Shown in pieces: positions 20,072-57,218 of a stretch of DNA of 63,335 bases. This DNA is from Fragilaria crotonensis (Eukaryota > Bacillariophyta > Fragilariophyceae > Fragilariales > Fragilariaceae). Each line of letters begins with the position of its first letter. Within the stretch, counting starts at the first letter, position 1. The stretch is from NCBI GenBank assembly GCA_022925895.1, contig JAKSYS010000345.1:1-63335 (forward strand), written 5' to 3'. The notes beneath the pieces were generated by a model, which had not been told where the DNA came from, did not search any database, and saw only the letters and a program-made list of their open reading frames with translations. Position numbers and translations under genes: made by a program.

Positions 20072-22257
20072 TTACTTGTTCCAAACATCAGATTCCCTGA
20101 AAAGCTCCTCACCTATGCCAATGTCCCTGGTGGCCACAAGGAACAAGTCGAAGCTCAAGTGATGACGATCGTAGACTGGAGAGAAAATCGGACGCGTACG
20201 ACGCGGCACCCATCGCCCAACATTAGCCTTCGCATCGTTTGCTTGAATCAGGAACGAAGCACCAACTTCAACATAAGTCTGACCCAAACCTGGTTCACTG
20301 GAGTTGTGGCCAAACTTGTCGATGAACTTGACGGCATCTGCAATGACCTTGACGTTTCCGTCCACTTCAGTATTTTGACGGAGGCCGGCCAAGACTTCAT
20401 CCTGGATAATAAAACTGCTGGCAAGATGGGAGGGCATGATATAGGAGCCCTTCGAATTTCGCGGATCGCCGTAACCTTGGGAATCGTCTCGTGAGGTCCA
20501 AGGAATTCCACCTTGAACGAACCGTTTTGTTCGTCATCGACATCATACTCATGCAATTCGGCGTTGGGATCGAGTGCAATGTAGGCGCATTCAAACGGTG
20601 TAGGATCGCGGCGACAATAGACCGTCTCCCAAGCCTTTGGTGGGTAGCGGTACGAAAGCTGAGTCGCACCGTCAAAATGAACCAGGGCTGGCACCTTGGA
20701 CTTTGTAGGCACGATGCGGTCGTAGATATCATAATCAAAGCGACCCGGCCCATCTTGCCATCGGCCTCGGCACAAGACGCTCTTGCACACGACCAAAAAG
20801 GCATGTGGCTCGAGGAATCCACAATGAGCCTCTTCGTAAGCAAACATGGCCTTGACAGAGTCTTGGATTTCCAGCATATTGAACATCCGCTCACGACGTT
20901 GATAGACGCCATGGTCGGCGCGCGGATCGTGGATGTTGGGAGCGGTCCCAACTTGAATGATAAGGACGCCTTCGTCAGAGAGCGACGTCAACAGAGCATT
21001 TGCAAAGTTCGCGTCGTTATAAAGCATTTCTGCAACTTGTACATCGTCCTCTGGATCAAGAGCATCAAGGATGATGACATCGAAAAGGTGGTCCGGCTTC
21101 GGCTGGGAAGGTTCTGGTCCGAAACGATCAACGAACCATTTGACACCTTCGGCAAAGACTAGTTTGGTTCTGCTGTCATCAAAACAGTTAGGTGCGCTGC
21201 CGAAAAGATCCGAACAGTTGTTCATTTGAGGCAAATATTCACGCGCAATTGCCACAAGTTCCGAATCCAACTCAATCATGGTGACAGTTTCCACCGACTT
21301 GTGCTTGAGGACTTCGCGCAGTGTCGCTCCTTCTCCGCCACCAATCAATGCCACGTGTTTTGGCGACGGGTGTGCAAACATGGCGGGGTGAACAAGGGCT
21401 TCGTGGTATTCGCGTTCGGTTGACGAGAGGGACTGTAAGGTGCCATCGAGGAACAGGAGACGATCTGGAGTTGCAATTTCGGGCGTCAACCAGCGTGGAT
21501 CTCCGGGTTGCAAGTTGTGCTGGAGAGCATCGTCGTAACTTGGTGTGTCGTCGACCTCCAAAACATCCCAAATATCGATTTGTTGAAACTTGGATCTGGT
21601 CGAGATGATACACTCCTTGGTATGCATCTCAAGAGGCGACAAGACCCAAAATGCAAGATCCGAGGAATGGTCTAGGTAATTGGTGCGGTTCTTATCAAGA
21701 CGGAAACCTCTGAGTTCGTGCGACCATTGAGTAACAGTATTCTCTCCAATTGCGAACAATTCCTCAATCTTTGGAACGACCGGAAGGAGAGGGTTGGATC
21801 CACAAGTGAAAAGATCCAGCGTGATGACACCATCATCAGGCCAAGTGTGGAAAGAAATGTGCGACTCCAGCAAGACACCAACACAGGAAACTCCTGAAGG
21901 AATGAGTTTGTGGCAATGGTACGACAGCATTGTAAGGCCGCCAGCTTTGACAGATTCCACCATAGCGTGCGCCAGGCGGTCTACCGAATCCAGAAAGTCT
22001 CCGTCAATGTTCTTGATATCAATCAACAAGTGTTGACCAGAAGGTTCATACACAGCTGAATCAATCGTTGGCTGTTGGACAACTGTGCGATCTGCAACGG
22101 TCTGCCACTTGTTCAATTCGACTTGGCCAATGCTAGCAATCATGTCTTCTGGTCCAAAGGCTACTCCTGCGCCAAATGCCAGCACCATGGCACAGGTGAT
22201 GCTCAAGAGAAAGACTCGAATGTCAATCGCATAACGTTTCGTCGTTTCGGCGGGCAT
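20072..22257 (-). CDS. Fused S-adenosylmethionine decarboxylase-aminopropyltransferase with membrane anchor and SET-like tail
   Basis: The start is ATG 22257. Residues 13-35 form a signal-anchor helix. Residues 70-175 are a bacterial-type (SpeD) AdoMet decarboxylase: GQHLLIDIKNID and LESHISFHTWPDDG, where Glu131/Ser132 form the self-cleavage site that yields the pyruvoyl group. Residues 230-540 are a spermidine synthase domain (VALIGGGEGATLREVLKHK; VIILDALDPEDD). The frame breaks at 20449-20455 (CGAAGGG). One added base joins REIRKGSYIMPSHLASSF to the rest, ending at 20072, about 728 residues in all. That tail ends in VATRDIGIGEELF, like the last strand of a SET domain. In diatoms such fusions are proposed to make long-chain polyamines for silica. 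Secretory targeting fits that. Confidence 0.85.
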
Positions 22258-22618
22258 GGTAGAGGAGGTTGTTCGAGAACTGAACGCACCGGTTTCGACC
22301 GCGCTGTGAAGGCTACAGTTGAGTTTTGGGAGTTGAGGAGTTGACAGTTGAGAATTGAGAACGGGTCTTGTGACGTCGAACGGGTGTCGAATAATATTGA
22401 GCCGTATCGTTGTCCATCAGTTTTGTATATTTGGTGCTCCACGGTGCCGTACGAATCTTTTGAAAACTCACTCCGACGTCCGACGGGTGACCTCGAGCGC
22501 AACGGTCGACGACGAGAAGACGTTAGACCTGAGACATGATACATGATCGTTATTAGCATTGCCACTTGGTCCGAAAGAGTATCTGATTCTATTTATAGCT
22601 TTGTTGCAACTTGCCACC
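22258..22618. promoter_or_regulatory. Bidirectional promoter region between the polyamine synthase and SFT2-like genes
   Basis: A 361-bp head-to-head spacer. Both genes act in or through the secretory pathway, so coordinated expression is possible. No specific factor site is recognised. Confidence 0.4.
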
Positions 22619-48563: not shown

Positions 48564-49187
48564 ATATTTCGAACCATTCAAATGTACCTGGAGCTCCGAG
48601 TACACTACCAGTACAGTTTATGGACGTCTTCAATTAAAGGTCGCTACAAAGGTACAGCACGCCGTGTGTCACAGAAAATGGAGGGAAACATCTTGTTTTT
48701 GCAGGAAATGGGTAGAGTACTCTATAGCTACTACAAGTAGTAGAGAGAGTTTTACTGCAGTATGCATACAGCCTACTCCGAGTACTGACTAAGCACGAAA
48801 AACATCCCCTGAAGGGAGAGGATGAACCTATCCTCACAACTACAAGTACCCAGTTCATTTAGATCAGACAGTGAACTTTTTTAGAGAGGCCTGTTCATAG
48901 CCAATGAAGGCTGCCCAAATGTGTTTATAGGTCTGATAGGCTGACTCTACTACGTCGAAGTGGTAGAAGCAATTTCCGGCCTTGTCCCCTTCGACTTCTC
49001 ATTTAGGCGTTTGTACTAACATTTTGGGCCTAGGAGAAAGGCTTGTTCAAGGCTTTTCTCTTCAAAGAAAGCAACAATGTTTTGAGCTCACACATTCACC
49101 CACTACCTCTCACGGAATCGACATTTCCAATTTGCATCAGTGGCGTTGTTGCAAACATCAGCAACTGCGGTAGGTTTCATCTTCGTC
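48564..49187. other. Spacer upstream of the NikA-like gene
   Basis: About 620 bp with several GTAC words and no recognisable domain in any frame. If the NikA-like gene has an upstream exon for a signal peptide, it would have to lie here. Confidence 0.35.
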
Positions 49188-50960
49188 ATGTCGACAAACT
49201 TGGGAAAGTGCAATGCTGTGTCCATCGATTTCATCGTCCGCGACACCGATCCCGAGATGGAGGCCGTTGAGGATGATATCAAGGGGGACCTGGCAAAGAT
49301 TGGTATCAAAGTCAACAGTATGTTTCTGAACGACGAAGATTATATCGATGCAGAACTGAACGGTAACTACAACGTTTTGTTTACTCGCACGTGGGGCGCC
49401 CCATATGATCCTCATTCGTACTTATCGTCTTGGGCTGTTCCAAGCCATGTCGAGTACTCTGCCATCGGTAACCTCCAGCCTCCCCTTACTCGTGATCTTC
49501 TTCTCCAAAAGATTGAAAAAGTCCAAAAGGAGCTAGATCCCCGAGCAATCCAGGAGCAGTGGCGAGAAATCCTTGACGATGTTCACCAGCAAGCTCTCTT
49601 CATGCCACTCTGGGGAACTCGTGTCCCGTACGTGATCAATCGGCGCTTAGTCGGTTTCGTCCCCGGTGAACAATCATGGGCATTCCCTTTGAATAACGTC
49701 AAGGTTGTCGAAGGATCCACCAGCGTTACGGTCTCTCCTGGAGCGGGTAGTCTCTTTACGAGCGTTGGTCCTCTCAACCCCCATCAGTACTCGCCCAACC
49801 AGCTCTTTGCTCAAGATTGGATCTACGAAGGCCTCGTGAGTTACGGTCAGGACGGCCAGATCGTTCCATCTCTAGCCTCATCGTGGGTAACCGAATCGAC
49901 TGCAGAAGGCCAGCGTGTCACATTCAAGCTCCGTCAAAACGTCACATTTCATGACGGAACGGCCTTCAACTGTACAGTTGCCAAGCTCAACTTCGACCAC
50001 GTCTTGTCCGATATCGTCAAAAAGCGTCACCAGTGGTACGGCGCCCCACAGCATCTCAAGTCATGGGTGTGCAACGACGCGGGCGATTTCGTTCTCGAGA
50101 CAACAACCCCTTTCTATCCGCTTCTTCAGGAATTGACTTACATCCGCCCTCTCCGATTTGCCTCGGCGTCGGCTTTTGCGAAAGGTGTCGACTCGAACCC
50201 AGACTTGCATAATTCGTGCGAGCCGGGAGGATTCGGTGAAAAGTGGAACTATCTCGAAGACAATGTCACATGCCTTGGCCTTACCGCCCCAATTGGAACG
50301 GGACCTTTCAAGTATGTATCGCGCGAAACCAACAACGGAACTGATGGTCGTGTCTACTTTTCACGCCATGATTCCTACTGGGGGCAAGTGCCTGACATTC
50401 AAAATATGGTTCTTGTCCCGTACGCCGACACGAATGAGGTGGAAGCCGCACTTCTTTCGGGGGAACTCGACATGACGCTTGGAATTGGCCCACTCTCGGC
50501 CAAACAGATTCAGGACATCAAGTTCAAACACAGCGACAAGTTTGATGTGCTTCACGGTGAGGTTCTCCAACACGCTATTCTTGTTTTCAATGGCAACAAG
50601 GCGCCCACCGACGATATAGAAGTCCGCCGAGCTATCATTCATGCAATTGACAAGGCTGCTTTCCTTGAAGAAGAGTTTGGAGGCCTTGAGCAACCCGTGA
50701 CGCAACTCCTTCCATTCACTGCCCCCTACTGCAACATTGATTTGAGTCCCAAATGGGGCTTCGACCTCGAAAAAGCCATGTCAATCAATTGTCCCCCAAG
50801 TATCCCCACTAACAGTCTTTCTGCCGGGGCCATTGCCGGAATTGTGGTCGCCGTATGCTTCGTTATATCTCTTGTTGCATTTGTTGCTAACATGATTCTT
50901 CGTGAACGTAGTGGACAGCCGATGTTTGCCCCGCCCTCGAAAGAAGCCGTTTCGGCGTAA
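49188..50960 (+). CDS. NikA-like solute-binding protein with reversed domain order and a C-terminal membrane anchor
   Basis: The frame opens at GTG 49140; the first ATG is 49188, giving 590 residues. Residues 10-140 match the C-terminal third of E. coli NikA (SBP family 5): TWGAPYDPHSYLSSWAVPSH keeps equivalents of Trp398, Tyr402 and the nickel ligand His416 (here Trp69, Tyr73, His87). Residues 150-530 match the N-terminal two thirds of NikA: LNPHQYSPNQLFAQDWIYEG, KKRHQW (Trp100 site) and RPLRF (Arg137 site), ending at DLEKA. Together they make one whole NikA in permuted order. A membrane helix (about 546-570) and a basic tail follow. No signal peptide is visible. Nickel or nickel-chelate binding is inferred. 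Confidence 0.75.
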   Translation: MSTNLGKCNAVSIDFIVRDTDPEMEAVEDDIKGDLAKIGIKVNSMFLNDEDYIDAELNGNYNVLFTRTWGAPYDPHSYLSSWAVPSHVEYSAIGNLQPPLTRDLLLQKIEKVQKELDPRAIQEQWREILDDVHQQALFMPLWGTRVPYVINRRLVGFVPGEQSWAFPLNNVKVVEGSTSVTVSPGAGSLFTSVGPLNPHQYSPNQLFAQDWIYEGLVSYGQDGQIVPSLASSWVTESTAEGQRVTFKLRQNVTFHDGTAFNCTVAKLNFDHVLSDIVKKRHQWYGAPQHLKSWVCNDAGDFVLETTTPFYPLLQELTYIRPLRFASASAFAKGVDSNPDLHNSCEPGGFGEKWNYLEDNVTCLGLTAPIGTGPFKYVSRETNNGTDGRVYFSRHDSYWGQVPDIQNMVLVPYADTNEVEAALLSGELDMTLGIGPLSAKQIQDIKFKHSDKFDVLHGEVLQHAILVFNGNKAPTDDIEVRRAIIHAIDKAAFLEEEFGGLEQPVTQLLPFTAPYCNIDLSPKWGFDLEKAMSINCPPSIPTNSLSAGAIAGIVVAVCFVISLVAFVANMILRERSGQPMFAPPSKEAVSA

Positions 50961-52190: not shown

Positions 52191-54218
52191 TTACATGCCA
52201 TTCACAATTGCGTTCTGGACATCTTCCACCGACACATAGACTTCCTCTGGCGCCAAGGACGGCATGCGTTGAGCTCCAGGAGTAATGAGCTTCATGGGCG
52301 ACATACTCTGTCTCGACGTATCATCCGCCGATTGCTGTCTCTTGCGCATCTCCGAGCGAACTCCCTGCAACAACAATTCCGCGACATTGCGGTCCAATCT
52401 CCATTCTTCGTCAGTGTTGCTGGCAATCAAGTCGGACAAATACTTGATAGTCAGGCCCTCGCCCGCCACGAGGCCCTTCATGCTGAGTTTGGACATGAAC
52501 ATGCGGGCGATTTGGGATGGAGTGGGGTCTGGCAATTCCAGACGCGTCAGGAAGTGTCCCTTAAAGCCAATGTCTGACGACAAGATGCGCTGCACGTTCT
52601 TGGAACTGCCCGTCATAATGACCAAGGGACTTCCAGAAGGTAAGGCGCGAGCGATTTCTCGCAAAGCCGCAGCGCCATGATCGCGGGCACGAGGGCGGGC
52701 GGTAGAGGGCAAGAGACTGGCAGCGTCGTTAATAAAGAGAACGCCACCGGACGCCTTTTCCAGTATTTTTCTGGTTTGGAAGACGGTGCGGGCCTCGCTT
52801 TTGCGATCAATAAAGTCTTCGCGAGTGGCTTCGACAAAGTTTGGGCTCTTGACGGCGCCCATCTTGTACAAAAGAGGGATCAAGAGACGGGCAATGATAT
52901 CCATGTTGGTCCCGGTGTTACCGACCAAGGCCATGTGACGAGGAACAAGTTTCTTGGTACCTTGCATCTCAAGGGTACGGCGAAGACCACGAATTTGGTT
53001 CTTGAGGGCATCCATTCCGATGAGCTGAGCGAGGGCAACCTCCACGTCGTCGTCAGGAGGGCAAAGCGCATCCTCAATCAATTCCGCCTCTTCTTCTTCA
53101 TCGCGGGCAGCCGCAGGGCTGTAAAGGGCAGACTCATCGCCGCCATCGCCCAAAACTCGGTCTCCATCAGCACCAGCCTTTCGAATCTGTGCGGTGATGA
53201 CAGTGTATCAAAGAAAATTAGATCAAGGCAATAATGTGCATGCACGCATCCAATCCACACACATCTTAACAGTGCACTTACCTGTTCCAACATGCCATCC
53301 AAATCTCCTGCTGCCTTGGGGTCAATACCAGCGGAATACAAGGCATGTGGATGGGCATCCTTAATGTCCATGAGCAAGGACAAGACGAGTTCCAAATCTT
53401 CATTCGACGAATCATGTTTCTCCATATTCCTCTGAAGTTCCTTCTCCATTCGCTCGCATCTGGCTTTGGCAGCTTCGAGTACTTCATCATCGGTCGGTGG
53501 CACAGTCTTTCCCTGCAAGAGTGCGACAACATTGGGCGACGCTCCATCGGCAATGGCGAGGTCGAGGGGCGTGTTGTTGTCATTGTTTTTCTGTGAGGCG
53601 CCCTCGGGGTAGGCGTGGTAAAGTGCCTCCACGACCTCGAGGGGTGCATTGTAGTGGGCGGCGTAGTGGAGGGGTAGGTTTCCGTGGTTGTTCTTTTGTG
53701 CGGCGCCTTCTGGGTAGAGTTTGAGCAAGAGACGTTCAACTTCGAGAGGTCCCTTCTTCCATGCTGTAAAGTGAAGAGCGAGGTTACCGTAGTTGTTGGT
53801 GCTGCGAGCAGCATCGGGGTTGGCTTCCAAGAGTGCTTCAGCAACTTCGAGCGGGGCGCGGAACGATGCAGCGGAGTGGAGAGGCAAGTTACCACGATCG
53901 TTCTTGATCAAGGCTTCGTGTCTGTGTGATGGGAAATGTGTGTGAGTGCATTATAGATACAATCAGCGACAAGCGGTTTCATTGAGTAGTAGTTGTCTCA
54001 AAGTGATTCTGTCAATACACTGCAGGAACACAAAGATCAACACTAGGGACCGCATATGTGTGCTAGTCCCGACACTCTGCAATCTGCACTATAACTCACT
54101 TGGTGGCAGGATCCGTGGCACGAGCAATTGCTGCCTTCCAACCTTTAGCCAATTCATGGAGATCCACAAAGTCTCCCGACGGCTGAAGCGACGAGGATGT
54201 TGCATTCATCTGCATCAT
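52191..54218 (-). CDS. Ankyrin repeat-AAA+ (CbxX/CfqX type) protein with degenerate Walker motifs, three exons
   Basis: Exons are 54218-54100, 53921-53282 and 53186-52191, with introns of 178 and 95 bp (GTGAGT...ACACAG; GTAAGT...GCACAG). The product has 584 residues. The first ATG in exon 1 is 54218; two more follow within ten residues. Ankyrin repeats (DRGNLPLHSAASFRAPLEV, NHGNLPLHYAAHYNAPLEV) fill about residues 45-165. The AAA+ domain starts near IGMDALKNQIRGLRR. The Walker A site reads GNTGTNMD in place of GNPGTGKT, and Walker B reads LFINDAAS in place of LFIDEAYT. The catalytic Lys/Thr and acidic pair are lost, so ATP hydrolysis is unlikely. The intact paralog lies divergently at 55192-57218. 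Confidence 0.85.
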
Positions 54219-55191: not shown

Positions 55192-57218
55192 ATGTCGACC
55201 GATACTACGCTCCATGATCTCTGCAAAGGTTTCGGGGCTCTCTTGAGTCGCGCAAAGGTGAGTTCATCATGAGCACCGGAAAGGAGGCAAACGCGGTGCA
55301 CAACGCAACGTTGAAAATCGTATTTATTCTGTGACGAATCTATGATGGCTTGTCTGCCATGTGAGCACGAGCTTGCAAATGTGTGATTGGCATTATGCTG
55401 CAGCTGCAATTAGCGATTTTCAGATTTTTGTGCATCCCTGGACTGGCCTGCCTAGTTCATCCAAGTTCAGCCCTAGCTTTAACGCGCCGTTCGTCTCACT
55501 TTGTCATTTCGCAGAATCCATCCTTCCCAGAAGAATCCTCGCGCCTCAACGAACGAGGAAATCTTCCTTTGCATGCCGCCTGCTCCTTCCAAGCCACCGC
55601 CGAAGTCGTGGAAACACTTCTCAAGGCATACCCCGGAGGAGCCTCCCAACCAAACTCGGCTGGAAACCTTCCCATCCACCAGGCCGCCATGTGGCAGGCA
55701 CCTGTAGAGACAGTGGAGCTATTGCTGTCGCGTCATCCTGAAGGAGCGACCGTGCGTAATCAGTACGGATCCCTACCCCTGCACATGGCAGCCTCCAACG
55801 AGGCATCGCCAGAAGTCATTCGCGTCCTTATCGATGCGTACCCAGACGCCCTCCACCTCCAGAATGACGACGGAATGACTCCCCTCGACCTTGCCCTCGC
55901 CGATGAGTCGGCAAGCGAAGCCATCATTGCCATGCTCGAAGGCCGTCCTCCTCCGCCGGAATTGACCCGCCGCCAAAAGGCCGAAAAGTACGAAGAACGA
56001 GCCATGGCACTGGAACGCAAACTCGCCTCATTGAAGGAATCCGGCGGCCGACAGGGCAAGGACTTGCACGAGGCACTCATTTGCGTGCGACGCTTGGCGG
56101 ACCGATTCCCCCATTCCCTCTATTCAGCGGGATTGGATCCAAACGAATTGGAAATTGCATTTTCGGAACGCCAGCAGGCGCCTGATTTGATTCTCATGGA
56201 TGCCATCAAGAAGAGACATTCCAGCGTCTCAAGGGATGTCAAGGGTGTGCCATTGACAGTTCAGACGCATGCCGCTACAGCGGCTGGTCCCAGAGATCGA
56301 GTTGAGGATTTGTTGGGATCCATCATCGGATTGGATCATATCAAGAGTCAGGTCCGCGGATTGCGCCGATCGACGGAAATTTCGGATCTCAAGGAATCGC
56401 TCCTTCCTGCCGCCAACAGCAGCCGACGCGGCCAGGCGGCTCTCTCGCTCATCAATCCAGCACTTTCGGAACTGACTGGCCGTCCCCATGCCAATCACAT
56501 GGTCTTTGTCGGCAACCCAGGAACCGGGAAGACAGCCGTGGCCCGTCTCTTGGCCAAGGCATATCACGAGCTTGGACTCTTGAGAAAACCCAAGTTTCTC
56601 GAAGTGGAACGCATGGACCTGGTTGGTCGCGACAAGGAACAGACGATCCTCAAGACCCGAGAGGTTCTGGACGAAGCCCGTGGTGGTATTCTTTTTATTG
56701 ATGAAGCCTACACTTTGGGAATGACCTCAAAGCGAAACAAGGTCGATACTGGAAGTGACGCTATGCTTGAAATCATCAAGTCCATGGAAGAAGCCAGCAA
56801 AAGTCCTGACAGCGAAGATAGCCACCCACTTGTCATTTTGGCAGGATTCCCTGTCGAAATGCAAACCTTTCTCAGCCATCAACCGGAGTTGCGCAAGAAC
56901 TTCCCGCTCACATTTGAATTCCCAGACTATTCTTGCCAAGAATTGGCCAAAATCTTCATCGATTTGGCCACTGCCAAGGGCTTTGATTTGGACGACGATT
57001 TGGATGAGGACTACATTGCCAAGATGCTGAGTCAGGAGACAACAGTTGCGTGGCGCGGAGAACGCAATGGCCGAGTGTGTGAATTGCTCATGGCAGGATG
57101 CCGCACGCAGGTGCGACGACGCATGCGTACAGCCCAGATTGAAGGCGATGACCACTTTGATCCGCACCAAATTATTCGACAGGATATTGAGGCCGTCATG
57201 ACGACGGATTTCAAATGA
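55192..57218 (+). CDS. Ankyrin repeat-AAA+ (CbxX/CfqX type) ATPase, two exons
   Basis: Exon 1 is 55192-55257 (MSTDTTLHDLCKGFGALLSR...) and exon 2 is 55515-57218. The 257-bp intron starts GTGAGT and ends TTTCGCAG. The product has 589 residues. Ankyrin repeats occupy about residues 35-165 (ERGNLPLHAACSFQATAEV, SAGNLPIHQAAMWQAPVE). The AAA+ domain has an intact Walker A (GNPGTGKTAVARLLAKAY, near 56510) and Walker B (GGILFIDEAYTLGM, near 56690). It matches the CbxX/CfqX family, which includes the red-type Rubisco activase CbbX, but the ankyrin part sets it apart and there is no plastid presequence. The diverging neighbour is an inactive-looking paralog, so a mixed ring is possible. Confidence 0.9.

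Follow-up and report, generated by a model that had tools for sequence, protein, structure and literature searches.

The window analysed here is a stretch of 63,335 nucleotides from the diatom Fragilaria crotonensis (contig JAKSYS010000345.1, forward strand), and its subject is a gene at 49188..50960 (+) for a NikA-type substrate-binding protein whose two segments stand in reversed order. The open reading frame (ORF), characterised with Pfam, phmmer and an AlphaFold2 model, runs in one frame from an ATG at 49188 to a stop ending at 50960 (590 codons), and the frame upstream of this ATG stays open from 49086 (34 codons). Its product matches PF00496 (SBP_bac_5) with 173.5 bits against a cut-off of 32.4, in two stretches (49224-49445 and 49857-50780), which places it among the family 5 (cluster C) substrate-binding proteins, and the top NCBIfam model is that of NikA (TIGR02294; 308.1 bits, below the curated cut-off of 393). 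The best chain in a phmmer search of the Protein Data Bank (PDB) sequences was 4oer (E = 1.9e-70), and the leading segment by itself scored well past chance (i-Evalue 4e-17).

Numbered from a GTG at 49140, residues 26-175 of the ORF protein correspond in the phmmer alignments to NikA ~339-484, residues 207-349 to ~10-148 and residues 375-548 to ~150-317, which bears out an earlier sequence-only reading of this DNA in which the segment that ends NikA precedes the one that begins it. On the forward strand, the NikA C-terminal part (~339-484; phmmer and BLASTP) occupies 49215..49664, the junction that leads the old C-terminal tail into the old mature N-terminus 49665..49757, and the NikA N-terminal part (~13-317; phmmer, BLASTP and superposition) 49758..50783. 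The junction is ~3 residues longer than both NikA ends summed; two anchors on either side of it lie 42 residues apart in the window protein and 42-47 residues apart in 213 algal proteins, and the same anchors in Citrobacter NikA are separated by 39 residues, given an assumed mature start. The old ends are thus joined, new ends are opened and about one whole protein is present, as in a circular permutant. The sequence-only reading had also proposed about one complete protein cut near NikA residue 350; the completeness stands, and the new opening of the chain lies nearer residues ~318-340. An AlphaFold2 model of the ORF protein (predicted local distance difference test 94.0, predicted template modelling score 0.87) gives one confident fold, so that the protein is predicted to fold as a single unit. 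The N-part of the model superposes on the NikA fold; Foldseek and VIA-align follow chain order, so the structural comparison covers one segment at a time.

Several residues of NikA, numbered here from alignments, have roles as ligands in chelate binding that are described in the NikA literature. Counterparts of Trp398 (W69), Tyr402 (Y73), His405 (H76) and His416 (H87) lie within 49392..49448, those of Arg97 (R280) and Trp100 (W283) within 50025..50036, and that of Arg137 (R320) at 50145..50147. The counterparts that had been named at the outset (Trp398, Tyr402, His416, Trp100 and Arg137) are all present, and with Arg97 the window gene holds all six chelate-site residues. The single membrane helix that had been read at the C-terminus is also found as a predicted helix of residues 546-574 (50823..50909), helical in the model and coinciding with a hydrophobic peak; a tail motif, E[RKQH]xGxPxF, is read directly from the ORF at 50904..50927 as ERSGQPMF. 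At the new ends of the ectodomain stand Cys8 (N-terminal; 49209..49211) and Cys535 (C-terminal; 50790..50792).

Relatives in algae and bacteria

A second gene of the same genome (C706:18960-20642) is 45% identical to the window gene and has the same swapped order, with an ATG, a signal-peptide-like start and a C-terminal hydrophobic helix within one frame. An algal sample was assembled from 263 different proteins, the best hits of three protein searches (in each, ~8000 candidates scored and the best 120 taken), plus the two genome genes. The swapped order occurred in 259 of these 265 proteins, among the matches listed and the two genes, and the remaining six are short (405-501 residues) and hold the second segment only; being made of best hits, the sample leans toward the swapped architecture. 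In BLASTP alignments against Citrobacter NikA, at least two segments were aligned in 220 of 239 algal proteins, and all 220 were swapped. The names given by the sources include Cylindrotheca, Seminavis, Nitzschia, Skeletonema, Thalassiosira, Pseudo-nitzschia, Symbiodinium, Chrysophaeum and Pycnococcus, and one relative bears the label Rhodomonas and could be a contaminant; the names Phaeodactylum and Thalassiosira pseudonana did not occur among the matches listed, and an initial scan of genome contigs and a scan of viral contigs returned no relative. What had been read as a single oddity is therefore a family with members in diatoms, Symbiodinium, a pelagophyte and a prasinophyte, and the search for the same order among diatom proteins that the earlier reading had advised finds it in the diatom relatives named among the matches listed. 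The matches listed also include longer relatives, P0196 (981 aa) and P0207 (944 aa), the first of which matches Peripla_BP_2 near its front and may be two binding proteins fused or two genes run together in the gene model.

Scanning the genomes of bacteria and archaea gave 231 relatives, of which the best 80 were kept for segment order. The normal N-before-C order was found in 79 of the 80 loci, and in the remaining one (L053) the N-part also leads but the match is divided over different frames; inheritance of the permutation from bacteria was accordingly rejected on the order in the best 80 of the 231 relatives. A tree was built over 463 columns from 213 sequences of algae and 79 of bacteria, with an arbitrary root on one bacterium. 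In it the algal sequences form a single clade (0.94) of two subfamilies, A with 95 rows including the window gene (0.995) and B with 118 rows including the paralog (0.949). The simplest reading of these sequences would be a single permutation before the A/B split.

Tyr22, Trp100, Arg137, Trp398 and Tyr402 are almost invariant across both subfamilies. Subfamily A has Arg97 in 94/95 rows and His416 in 91/95; subfamily B has Glu at position 416 in 107/118 rows, Trp, Tyr or Lys instead of Arg97 in 105/118, and a His two positions past 416 in at least 66/118. The paralog follows this pattern, with Tyr replacing Arg97 and Glu replacing His416, and the subfamilies probably differ in the metal or the chelate that they bind. 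Position 8 is Cys in 202/202 rows having a letter there and position 535 in 210/210, the two occurring together in 199/199 rows with letters at both; Cys262 accompanies Cys295 in 213/213 rows and Cys344 accompanies Cys362 in 212/213, so that three disulfides may be formed. The tail motif, counted apart from 8 truncated rows, the window gene, P0009, P0024 and P0068, is present in 53 of 55 A rows with a short start and in 25 of 28 longer A rows (together 78/83), compared with 9/118 B rows; reversed tails never show it.

ZCRP-B and other known systems

The closest described protein is ZCRP-B, a NikA homologue of diatoms and a Zn/Co-responsive membrane protein whose abundance increases when Zn and Co are low, a response seen in three diatoms (PMC9010474). 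It localises to the cell membrane and has homologues in diatoms, dinoflagellates and prymnesiophytes (PMC9010474). The window protein resembles it as a diatom NikA homologue with one predicted membrane helix, and the 30.5% identity of ZCRP-B to E. coli NikA (PMC9010474) fits the median of 30.7% obtained when 239 algal proteins are each compared, by their best segment, with Citrobacter NikA. Since both NikA-like genes of the Fragilaria genome and the named diatom relatives listed are permuted, the permuted algal family very probably includes ZCRP-B, likened here by description, the ZCRP-B sequence being 49168; the N-terminal position described for the ZCRP-B helix (PMC9010474) speaks against this membership. 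The string "permut" has no occurrence in the main text of PMC9010474, and a literature search, with most subscription journals and bioRxiv preprints outside its reach, found no report of the permutation. In what is very probably the same family, ZCRP-B was already known as a Zn/Co-responsive protein; the end cysteines and the subfamily-A tail motif are new features of the algal proteins. The description of the protein as nickel-type in the sequence-only reading applies to the fold rather than to the metal, since ZCRP-B was studied for zinc and cobalt (PMC9010474).

Bacterial NikA (TIGR02294) and CntA share both segments, the fold of the N-part and the pocket residues Trp100, Arg137, Trp398 and Tyr402 with the algal protein, which differs from them in segment order, in its score below the cut-off, in the membrane helix and in the conserved cysteines. 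A further difference is that no permease of the ATP-binding cassette (ABC) type was found in the Fragilaria genome as a partner like that of NikA: PF00528 gave 0 matches with 14/14 controls positive, a search that intron-rich genes could escape. Because order, score and partner all depart from NikA, the ORF protein is a family-5 binding protein outside NikA proper. As a proposed working mode only, it may be likened to ISIP2a/phytotransferrin, a surface metal catcher with one membrane helix that is taken up by endocytosis (PMC9010474); ISIP2a differs in that it binds iron and, according to the same source, has no significant sequence similarity to ZCRP-B.

Topology, metal and rival explanations

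The protein most likely works as a membrane-held catcher of metal chelates, and on balance we favour a history in which a NikA-type (cluster C) protein was permuted once before the A/B split and has become a surface metal-chelate receptor. The permutation would have arisen most simply by tandem duplication followed by loss of the outer halves, a course that had been proposed as an alternative to permutation and is really its usual route. A disulfide between the end cysteines would close the ectodomain, which would hang outside the cell, tethered to the membrane at its opened edge. As the pocket retains the chelate-holding residues of NikA, what it captures is probably Zn, Co or Ni in complex with a ligand, and as the genome yielded no ABC permease, delivery would take a non-ABC route, such as a ZIP transporter or receptor uptake guided by the tail. 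A fuller version, which we offer tentatively and as a whole, would have the family form an ABC-independent class of algal metal-chelate receptors, in which permutation of a bacterial NikA-type protein has shifted the anchor to another edge of the fold, a disulfide linking the new ends seals the ectodomain, traffic of subfamily A is directed by its E[RKQH]xGxPxF tail, and the two ancient subfamilies, distinguished by His or Glu at the metal position, bind different metals or metallophores.

Several observations weigh against such a receptor. With a signal-like start called by a crude hydrophobicity rule, 55 of the 95 A rows begin at most 15 residues ahead of Cys8 without a signal peptide, and none is visible in the window protein from the ATG at 49188. 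N-glycosylation sequons are not enriched in these short-start rows (2.51 per row observed vs 2.88 shuffled), the corresponding values being 2.89 vs 2.56 in longer A rows and 2.26 vs 3.13 in B rows. NikA Tyr382 is not conserved at the aligned algal column, although bacteria vary there too, with Tyr in 34 of 79. The helix of ZCRP-B is reported near the N-terminus and that of the window protein is C-terminal, and a significant rise in Co uptake is named, in the available portion of the source, only for overexpression of ZCRP-A (PMC9010474). The capture of metal is itself read from sequence, and the closure of the pocket is a prediction.

The short starts would also suit a permuted fold in which a tail anchor holds the signal-less A proteins with their binding domain facing the cytosol, to buffer or distribute metal there, which we regard as quite unlikely. 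In 52 of the 55 short-start rows the first residue is followed by S, A or T, and the window gene, P0009, P0024 and P0068 retain a Met before Cys8 despite in-frame sequence further upstream, so that this Met looks like the true start; the absence of sequon enrichment agrees with a cytosolic domain, and ZCRP-B with N-terminal yellow fluorescent protein still reached the cell membrane (PMC9010474). The cysteines are, however, kept in 98-100% of short-start rows as in the others, the mean net charge of -1.2 to -1.5 ahead of the helix and +1.3 to +2.4 beyond it favours the N-terminus outside, a signal-like start occurs in 25 A rows (with 7 longer rows lacking one and 8 truncated) and in 93 of 118 B rows, and the tail motif is common to A rows with and without such a start. 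The conserved cysteines and the charges would thus suggest export, although the short-start A rows have no signal peptide. A search for an upstream signal-peptide exon gave 3 candidates, and because 35 of 60 shuffles gave at least 3, the candidates argue neither for nor against such an exon.

The metal could be nickel, supplied to urease as by bacterial NikA, with the Zn/Co response belonging to the other subfamily or being indirect; this is a doubtful possibility, though less so than a cytosolic domain. Subfamily A retains the NikA site in full, Arg97 and His416 included, urease is present in the genome, and a T. pseudonana NikA is discussed alongside urease (PMC3797725), against which stand the response of ZCRP-B to Zn and Co in three diatoms (PMC9010474) and the finding of no Ni data for the permuted family. 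Barely credible is a conventional NikA of two tandem domains whose upstream exon was missed, or an artefact of assembly or contamination. The 34 open codons upstream of the ATG leave some room for an exon, but a whole-genome PF00496 search matched only the two stretches of the window ORF and two of the paralog, with no normal NikA N-terminal half elsewhere, and the order is identical in 259 of the 265 proteins. Assembly artefact and contamination were ruled out by the paralog, by the same order in relatives and by eukaryotic neighbours. The circular permutation with a C-terminal anchor that had been suggested from the ORF is therefore supported by sequence, relatives and model.

A membrane-held catcher of this kind bears on how diatoms take up picomolar zinc, cobalt and nickel. 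If ZCRP-B is in the family, the permutation shows a bacterial binding protein rebuilt as a membrane receptor, names pocket residues for mutation, separates two possibly metal-distinct subfamilies and indicates a tail signal. For the study of protein evolution, a substrate-binding protein that was circularly permuted in nature and has persisted in several groups of algae would also be of interest.

Genomic surroundings

The neighbours of the ORF in the window are eukaryotic, including bromodomain, copine and EXS genes, and neither the Rfam scan nor the tRNA scan gave a match in the window. Elsewhere, the genome holds CobW-type, ZIP and urease matches. On each of two contigs of G000 (C217 and C86), urease matches lie within a few kb of cobW-family matches, which suggests that a pair of urease and metal chaperone is present twice in the genome. 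Ankyrin repeats occur in opposite orientation at 52194-53950 (-) and 55365-57215 (+), and these may be an inverted duplicate pair; the gene at 55365-57215 (+) also bears an AAA domain, and the frame at 52194-53207 has no Pfam match and was read as AAA-like. Fusions of S-adenosylmethionine decarboxylase and spermine/spermidine synthase have been described for diatoms, and at 20251-22416 (-) both domains stand in one frame as a polyamine-synthesis fusion.
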